A stretch of DNA of 64,000 nucleotides from Nocardioidaceae bacterium (GTDB lineage: Bacteria > Actinomycetota > Actinomycetes > Propionibacteriales > Nocardioidaceae), in the NCBI GenBank assembly GCA_025980475.1, contig JAICXL010000003.1, forward strand, positions 23,289-87,288, written 5' to 3'. Within the stretch, counting starts at the first letter, position 1. Each line of letters opens with the position of its first letter. The notes below the pieces were generated by a model, which was not told the DNA's origin, made no database searches, and saw only the letters and a list, made by a program, of their open reading frames with translations. A program made the position numbers and the translations under genes. Shown piece by piece: positions 14,382 to 16,550 of the stretch.

Positions 14382-14954
14382 TCAGCGGGCGGCGAGGAAG
14401 TCCAGCACGCGCCCGGTGAGCAGGCCCGCAGCGTCGGCGTCGTACGACGGCAGCGAGCTGTCGGTGAACAGGTGCCGGTCTCCGGGGTAGAGGAAGAGCT
14501 CGCCCTCGTCGACGGAGGCGACCAGCTCCCGGGCGGCGTCGACGTCGCCCTCACCGCTGAAGAACGGGTCGGCGTCCATGCCGTGCACCTGGAGCGGGAC
14601 TCCCTCGGGCCAGCTGCCGAACTCGGCCGCCGGCGCGCAGGACTCGAAGAACAGCGCTCCGACCGCCCCCGGCCGGGTGATGGCCAGCTTCTCAGCCGGC
14701 ATCACGCCGAAGGAGAACCCGGCGTAGACGACGGCTGCCGGCAGGTCGACGACCGCGTCGACCGCGCGCTGGACCATGGCTCCGAAGCCGGCCGCCTCGA
14801 GGTGGGCCATCCCCTCGTCGACGCTGTCGAAGGTCCGCCCGTCGAACAGGTCCGGCGTGTGCACGGTGTGGCCGGCTCCGCGAAGGCGGTCGGCGAACGC
14901 GACGACCCCGGGGGTCAGTCCGCAGACGTGGTGAAAGAGCACGACCTCAGCCAC
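14382..14954 (-). CDS. Dienelactone hydrolase family protein
   Basis: A 190-aa alpha/beta-hydrolase of the dienelactone hydrolase family. It shows VVLFHHVCGLTPGVVAFADR, LFDGRTFDSV, the nucleophile region VVYAGFSFGVMPAEKLA, the acid in MDADPFF and His in YPGDRHLF. In this copy the usual catalytic Cys position (GFCxGG) reads GFSFG, so a Ser nucleophile is likely. The GTG start at 14954 overlaps the dinB-like stop by 8 bp, making a two-gene operon with the DinB protein. Confidence 0.85.
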   Translation of the reverse strand: MAEVVLFHHVCGLTPGVVAFADRLRGAGHTVHTPDLFDGRTFDSVDEGMAHLEAAGFGAMVQRAVDAVVDLPAAVVYAGFSFGVMPAEKLAITRPGAVGALFFESCAPAAEFGSWPEGVPLQVHGMDADPFFSGEGDVDAARELVASVDEGELFLYPGDRHLFTDSSLPSYDADAAGLLTGRVLDFLAAR

Positions 14955-15525
14955 GGCTCGACCCGCCCGCCGGTCGCCAGTCCGCCGGCGGGTCCTCACC
15001 GACGCGGCCGTCGATGGCCTCCCGGATCAGGTCGGCGTGCCCCGTGTGCCGGCCGTACTCCTCGAGCAGGTCGCACAGCAGCCGCCGCAGGCTGGGCCGG
15101 CGACCGTCAGGCCAGGACAGGTTGACCGGCTGGTCGAGGCCGCCACCCTCGAGCGCGGCCGCGAGCCGGGCCCGGGAGCGTTGCACCGCCGCGTCGTAGA
15201 GCGCGTAGAGCGTCCCCGGCCGGTCGTCGGCAGCGGAGTGCCACTCCCAGTCGGGATCCGACTCCAGGTCTGCGGTCTCCCAGGGTGCGCCGAGGGACTC
15301 GCCGGCGAGCTTGCCGGTGAAGTAGTGGTCCTCGACCAGCGCGAGGTGCTTGAGCAACCCGCCGAGCGTCATGGTGGAGGCGCCGACGGGGACGGCCAGG
15401 CCGACGGCGTCGAGGCCGTCGGCCTTCCAGCGGAAGGTGGCGCGCAGTCGCTCCAGCGAGCCGGTGAGGTGCTCGGCCTCGGTTCCGGCGATCGGCGGTT
15501 CCCAAGGGGTGGTCGTCGTGGTCAT
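14947..15525 (-). CDS. DinB/DUF664-family protein
   Basis: A 192-aa DinB-like four-helix protein of the mycothiol-dependent-enzyme-like group. The recognisable parts are an N-terminal LERLRATFRWKADGL, the metal-ligand segment GGLLKHLALVEDHYF and the last His pair in EYGRHTGHADLIREAI. Likely a metal-dependent thiol-linked transferase or isomerase; the substrate is unknown. The ATG has TACGGT 6 nt upstream and so is probably leaderless. It is first in an operon with the dienelactone hydrolase. A perfect palindrome upstream is shared with the divergent WYL regulator. Confidence 0.88.
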   Translation of the reverse strand: MTTTTTPWEPPIAGTEAEHLTGSLERLRATFRWKADGLDAVGLAVPVGASTMTLGGLLKHLALVEDHYFTGKLAGESLGAPWETADLESDPDWEWHSAADDRPGTLYALYDAAVQRSRARLAAALEGGGLDQPVNLSWPDGRRPSLRRLLCDLLEEYGRHTGHADLIREAIDGRVGEDPPADWRPAGGSSRG

Positions 15526-15543
15526 GGGTCGACCGTAGGACCG

Positions 15544-15568
15544 GTTCCGGACGGATCGCGTCCGGAAC
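15544..15568. promoter_or_regulatory. Palindromic operator between dinB-like gene and WYL regulator
   Basis: A perfect 10-bp inverted repeat GTTCCGGACG with a 5-bp spacer (GATCG) and the exact complement CGTCCGGAAC. Its centre (15556) is equidistant from the two divergent starts (15525 and 15588), each of which carries a -10-like hexamer 6-7 nt before its start codon. The arms would cover both -35 regions, so binding by the WYL regulator could repress or switch both promoters together. The palindrome is directly visible; the assignment to the WYL protein is inference. Confidence 0.75.
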
Positions 15569-15587
15569 TCGTGCCATTCTGTTGCCC

Positions 15588-16550
15588 ATGCACGCGGAGA
15601 ACCCCACCGCCCGGGCGCTGCTGGCCCTGGAGGTCCTCCAGGGCTCGCCCGGGATCACTGCGGAGCGGCTCGCCGACCGGCTCGGCGTCTCGGAGCGGGC
15701 GGCGCGGCGGTATGTGGGCACCCTGCGCGAGGCCGGCATCCCGATCGACTCGGTGCGCGGCCCGTACGGCGGCTACCGCCTCGGCCGTGGCGTCCGGCTG
15801 CCCCCGCTCGTGTTCGACTCCACCGAGGCCCTCGGCCTGGTGATGGCGGTGCTCGACGGGCACCACGACGCGGGAGATCCCAGCGACCCGGTCGGTAGTG
15901 CGCTCGGCAAGCTGATGCGCGCCCTGCCCGAGCCGGTGGTGGCCCAGGCAGAGGCGGTGCGTCGTACGACCTCCCCCGCGCCCGACCGCAGCGCGGCACG
16001 GCCCGAGCCGGCCACCACAGCCGCCCTGGTCGAGGCGTGCACGTCACGGCGCCGGGTGCGGCTCGACTACCGCTCCGAGGCCGGCTCCGAGTGGCTGATG
16101 GACGTCGACCCGTGGGCGGTCGTCGTGCGACACGGCCGGTGGTACCTGCTGTGCCGCTCGTGCCAGGCCGACGCCCGACGCGCCTACCGGGTCGACCGGG
16201 TCCGCTCCGTCGAGCTGCTCGACGACGCCTTCACCCCACCTGCCGGCCTGGACCCGGTCGCCACGCTCGACGAGCACCTCGCCAGCGGCTGGGAGTACGA
16301 CACCGAGGTGGTCATCGACGCGCCCCTCGAGGCGGTGGCCAGGTGCGTGCCGAGGACGCTGGGTCGGCTCTCAGCGGTCGGCCCGCAGACCACGCAGCTG
16401 ACCGGCAGCACCAGCAACCCAAGGTGGTACGCCGAGTGCCTGGCCGCCGTCCCGGTGCCCTACCGGATCGTGCGCTGCGCCGAGCTGCGGGAGGCGGCCC
16501 GGGCCATCGGCCAGCGGTTGCTCGATGCCGCTGCCGCTGCCGAGCGATAG
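15588..16550 (+). CDS. HTH-WYL-domain transcriptional regulator
   Basis: A 320-aa YafY-type regulator. The N-terminal HTH_11 (ARALLALEVLQGSPGITAER, LGVSERAARRYVGTL) and wing GPYGGYRLG are followed by a WYL ligand domain (RRRVRLDYRS, VDPWAVVVRHGRWYLLCR), then a C-terminal extension. It likely controls itself and the divergent dinB/dienelactone operon through the palindrome between them. The start is ATG 15588 (MHAENPTAR) with CATTCT 7 nt upstream, preferred to the TTG at 15582 two codons earlier. Confidence 0.9.
   Translation: MHAENPTARALLALEVLQGSPGITAERLADRLGVSERAARRYVGTLREAGIPIDSVRGPYGGYRLGRGVRLPPLVFDSTEALGLVMAVLDGHHDAGDPSDPVGSALGKLMRALPEPVVAQAEAVRRTTSPAPDRSAARPEPATTAALVEACTSRRRVRLDYRSEAGSEWLMDVDPWAVVVRHGRWYLLCRSCQADARRAYRVDRVRSVELLDDAFTPPAGLDPVATLDEHLASGWEYDTEVVIDAPLEAVARCVPRTLGRLSAVGPQTTQLTGSTSNPRWYAECLAAVPVPYRIVRCAELREAARAIGQRLLDAAAAAER

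Follow-up and report, generated by a model that had tools for sequence, protein, structure and literature searches.

The closest characterised counterpart of the locus described here is that of SiwR, a WYL protein of Mycobacterium smegmatis. According to its description (PMC10693628), SiwR recognises an imperfect palindrome of 19 bp in the promoter from which divergent DinB genes are read, and activates these genes under genotoxic stress, the -26 region being required; it also binds ssDNA. The same text asks whether SiwR has targets beyond its neighbours and raises the question of sigma adaptation. Some WYL proteins, e.g., the phage-defence regulators BrxR and CapW, are given there as repressors. 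The second relevant system is PafBC, which has a motif of the type tTGTCRgtg-8nt-TannnT (PMC5656591).

Architecture of the locus

The locus lies in a window of 64,000 nucleotides (the whole stretch of DNA that was analysed) from a Nocardioidaceae bacterium. Its features are as follows:

15588–16550, plus strand: WYL regulator of 320 aa, with HTH_11 and WYL domains (both above the Pfam cut-offs) and a WCX-type C-terminus
14947–15525, minus strand: divergent, apparently leaderless gene of the mycothiol S-transferase (MST) family (PF04978/DUF664, DinB superfamily; Pfam)
14382–14954, minus strand: second gene, dienelactone hydrolase-like (DLH; PF01738, Pfam), its start taken from an alignment with a relative
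15544–15568, no strand: predicted operator, a perfect 10-bp inverted repeat GTTCCGGACG-N5-CGTCCGGAAC, recognised from sequence
15532–15537, minus strand: TACGGT, the -10 hexamer for the MST gene, which fits TAnnnT, 11 nt beyond GTCC and 6 nt before the ATG (leaderless spacing)
15575–15580, plus strand: weak mirrored -10 hexamer CATTCT of the WYL gene, without the first T of TAnnnT, 7 nt before the ATG

The WYL and MST genes start with ATG codons at 15588 and 15525, respectively. The first-pass annotation had reported the palindrome, with its GATCG spacer, as GTTCCGGACG-GATCG-CGTCCGGAAC at 15544–15568, and both the sequence and the coordinates proved exact. It had also placed the centre of the palindrome exactly midway between the start codons; the two points (15556 and 15556.5) are half a base apart. 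The core dyad inside the palindrome is GGAC-N7-GTCC (15549–15552 and 15560–15563), and TACGGT and CATTCT are each 6 nt from the nearer arm. If the A of the MST start codon is numbered +1, GTCC occupies -27 to -24 and the -10 hexamer -12 to -7. No -35 element was found at -36 to -31 of the MST promoter, where the sequence reads ACGCGA.

The DLH-like gene probably begins at the GTG codon at 14954, which overlaps the MST stop codon; the longest ORF begins at 14999. The term "DinB-like" refers in this locus to a DUF664/mycothiol S-transferase and not to DNA polymerase IV. The whole genome contains only two WYL-domain matches, namely this regulator and an ORF beside a helicase-like gene. PafB and PafC were not detected in this genome (92.8% complete assembly).

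Perfect 10-bp arms with a spacer of up to 10 nt arose in 33 of 20,000 random 62-bp stretches. Such arms occur at six places in the 64-kb window (10 overlapping matches), so the palindrome by itself proves little. With up to 2 mismatches allowed, the genome contains no second copy of it.

Conservation in orthologous loci

Orthologues of the regulator were drawn from relatives and named genomes, and 98 loci with enough upstream sequence were counted. The first-pass annotation had stated that its reading would be refuted if orthologous intergenic regions lacked the palindrome; it was found there in 93 of the 98 loci, as TTCCGGACGNNNNNCNTCCGGAA with no more than 4 mismatches, so that the reading passed this test. 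In control windows taken from gene bodies, the best match to TTCCGGACGNNNNNCNTCCGGAA had 4–7 mismatches. On the MST side, GTCC-N11-TAnnnT is present in 76 of the 93 palindrome-bearing loci and at none of the other offsets tested. On the WYL side, a mirrored xAnnnT at the same offset was seen in 6/93 loci of the clade, which equals the background. Where a start codon lies near the -10, it is 6–7 nt downstream in 65 of 71 loci, i.e., in a leaderless arrangement. The earlier claim that both starts carry -10-like hexamers at leaderless spacing stands for the window, with the qualification that the two promoters are unequal: TACGGT is conserved in the clade, CATTCT is weak and not conserved.

Among 59 orthologous loci, the divergent leaderless gene encodes an MST in 43, a GNAT protein in nine and a DUF1905 protein in four. 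Four loci (L058, L060, L110 and L055) have very short leaderless ORFs of 6–18 codons at the expected start; these may encode leader peptides or be what is left of an MST gene that was lost.

Conservation and geometry rule out a chance palindrome. A hairpin acting in RNA was also rejected, since neither transcript would include the palindrome if it begins at its putative start, downstream of the repeat. On this sequence evidence, the palindrome is a real and widely conserved operator, predicted to be that of the neighbouring WYL regulator. The proposed link of this operator with the regulator and with a divergent DinB-superfamily (MST)/DLH operon is likewise supported, and the MST start appears to be leaderless.

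Comparison with SiwR, PafBC and WYL repressors

As in the SiwR/dinS locus (MSMEG_1359 and MSMEG_1357–1356; PMC10693628), an HTH-WYL-WCX regulator is divergent from a DinB-superfamily gene, with about 60 bp between them. Both loci have a GGAC-N7-GTCC core between the -10 and -35 positions, the same -10 offset, a leaderless-type start and conserved Arg residues: R37/R41 of the recognition helix and R201/R204 of the WYL domain in the window's protein correspond to R38/R42/R204/R207 of SiwR. The window has these features of a SiwR-type locus: HTH and WYL (and WCX) domains, a divergent DinB-superfamily gene, a -26 palindrome upstream of the -10 and the four Arg residues. However, the neighbours are DinB_2 and DUF664 proteins in the SiwR/dinS locus and MST and DLH in the window.

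A set of mycobacterial homologues has a TAGGACAG-N3-CTGTCCTA palindrome and intergenic distances of 61–63 bp; several of its members possess R38/R42/R204/R207, and one locus has a divergent DinB_2 gene with a similar-sized ORF after it on the same strand. Judging from the operator, the spacing, the Arg residues and the DinB_2 neighbour, these homologues were taken as the SiwR group. Their loci share GGAC-N7-GTCC and the N11 offset with the window's clade, whereas the operator of the latter is TTCCGGACG-N5-CGTCCGGAA. In the phylogenetic tree, the two groups form separate branches with 100/100 support, and the identity between them is about 30%. The window's regulator belongs to the sister group and is not an orthologue of SiwR in the same clade.

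In the mycobacterial SiwR-type loci (L123, L126–L151), mirrored -10s are equidistant from the palindrome (26/26 and 24/26), which makes a symmetric two-way promoter; no mention of them was found in the available part of the SiwR description (PMC10693628). The two-way symmetry that had been claimed for the window's locus is present in this mycobacterial group (26/26), but in only 6/93 loci of the window's own clade. Three other mycobacterial loci (L122, L124 and L125) represent a third clade of WYL proteins, whose palindrome is of the CCGGGC-N7-GCCCGG type; L124 has a divergent glyoxalase gene, with TAnnnT at the same offset.

The profile of the window's WYL clade aligns to PafBC of known structure (6sj9) over positions 64–314. 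PafBC RecA-NDp promoters have GTC and TAnnnT at a spacing identical to that in the window. Compared with tTGTCRgtg-N8-TannnT, the window's site (CGTCCGGAAC arm) matches in spacing and GTC, but not in R and gtg. Unlike the window's site, which is a palindrome as expected for a homodimer, the PafBC motif is non-palindromic and is recognised by a heterodimer that does not bind DNA without RNA polymerase.

The first-pass annotation had proposed that one operator occludes both -35 regions equally; in a model of this kind, the WYL protein would be a repressor that blocks RNA polymerase at both divergent promoters until a ligand releases it. The palindrome does overlap both promoters at an equal distance, and repression is known for several WYL proteins such as BrxR and CapW (PMC10693628), which resemble the window's regulator in binding DNA near the genes they control. 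But these proteins repress defence operons, and no defence genes were identified among the window neighbours examined. Occlusion of both -35 regions, as the annotation envisaged, does not agree with the MST side, which has ACGCGA in place of a -35 and whose GTCC is in register with both the SiwR site and the -26 element of PafBC. Occlusion is unlikely because this geometry equals that of SiwR and the PafBC motif, where WYL proteins activate; a -26-type site from which a promoter lacking a -35 is activated would fit better. The clade does not conserve the -10 on the WYL side, the fixed GTCC-N11-TAnnnT register without a -35 is that of WYL-activated promoters, and SiwR itself is an activator that needs the -26 region. 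We therefore regard the repressor model as unlikely. The position of the operator suggests that the WYL regulator turns on, and does not block, a detoxification gene.

Operator sites away from the regulator gene

A search for the -10 plus operator pattern (35 bp of promoter and operator) in 395 genomes of the class gave 70 strand matches in 36 genomes. The WYL orthologue is present in 34 of these 36 genomes and in 49 of the 395 (Fisher p = 6e-35; the test ignores shared ancestry). In a tally made by hand, from which sites adjoining the WYL gene were left out, 22 of the 49 orthologue-bearing genomes had non-adjacent sites versus 2 of the 346 others (p = 1.8e-20, again ignoring shared ancestry). 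When the gap between the -10 and the operator was lengthened by one base, the 70 matches fell to 1; a backward control pattern gave no matches in the same search.

An ATG or GTG codon is located 6–7 nt after the -10 in 61/69 non-adjacent sites. The 63 proteins behind these sites include Glyoxalase_6 (30), MST (12), pentapeptide repeats (7), DUF1905 (5), GNAT (4), pterin dehydratase (2) and DLH (1). Codon artefacts, which had been considered for the palindrome alone, were rejected once sites also had to show the -10 in register and a leaderless start. Related actinobacteria thus have leaderless VOC/glyoxalase, MST, pentapeptide-repeat, DUF1905, GNAT and DLH genes with the same promoter and operator. 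The DLH of a congener (L181), 59% identical to the window's DLH, has its own operator copy, so that a gene which is part of the MST operon in the window stands behind a separate operator in the congener.

The SiwR-type mycobacteria have one site and locus per genome, whereas relatives have several sites. In one genome (L201, G267:C5:183900-189900), four operator sites lie within 5 kb; one adjoins the WYL gene, and the others precede MST, pentapeptide-repeat-like and VOC-like genes. In another (L212, G414:C20:142900-146200), an MST gene and a 431-aa gene are separated by a palindrome that is not next to the WYL gene and has good -10s in both directions. The genome of the window has only one site.

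The site in G414, with its -10s facing two genes, bears on a further possibility, in which one dimer would serve as a mirror-image activator of both promoters, combining positive autoregulation with control of the MST operon. The pattern matches the window's genome in both orientations (0 and 1 mismatch), and every SiwR-type locus (26/26) has mirrored -10s. Yet the mirrored -10 is not conserved in the window's clade, CATTCT is weak, and in many orthologues the start of the WYL gene is at a variable distance and has no mirrored -10; we find this arrangement quite improbable. That a different transcription factor binds the palindrome, the WYL gene merely adjoining it, is very improbable: non-adjacent sites often have another spacer (ATCCG vs. 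TTCTG), but the predicted WYL sites are almost confined to genomes that carry this WYL clade (34 of 36), and SiwR binds the equivalent site in its own locus (PMC10693628).

No description of such a WYL regulon was found in the literature searched. We lean towards the view that a clade of WYL activators not described before, and sister to SiwR, governs a leaderless detoxification regulon spread over the genome (VOC/glyoxalase, mycothiol S-transferase, pentapeptide repeat, DUF1905, GNAT and DLH) in many actinobacteria via a palindromic -26 operator, and that the window is a reduced form with a single site.

Proposed mechanism

The following overall scheme is, in our opinion, likely. The adjacent WYL protein would bind the palindrome, its predicted operator, as a homodimer at the -26 position of the leaderless MST–DLH promoter, which has a -10 and no -35. 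On a stress signal, probably ssDNA bound by the WYL domain, the regulator would help the housekeeping RNA polymerase to use the MST promoter, as SiwR and PafBC do. Through the weak mirrored -10 in the window's genome, this site may also promote or restrict expression of the regulator gene itself. Regulators of the same clade probably act in trans on a broader range of leaderless detoxification genes in many relatives.

Activation is preferred because the spacing is that of the PafBC motif, the core and the -10 offset are shared with SiwR, the Arg residues essential in SiwR are conserved, and a -35 is absent. Against this, given the low identity to the SiwR group and the separate clade, the mode of action could differ; another regulator could serve the non-adjacent sites with a different spacer; BrxR and CapW are WYL repressors; and the window's genome has a single site.

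Significance

The earlier interpretation of two-way occlusion is thus revised: at this locus a SiwR-like regulator probably activates a leaderless stress gene, and a broader regulon is predicted. A sensor of the DNA-damage type may control detoxification enzymes, among them families linked to resistance against genotoxic natural products. With the 35-bp promoter-plus-operator pattern, targets can be predicted to the base in many genomes, which makes the two questions posed for SiwR, on wider targets and on sigma adaptation, directly testable.
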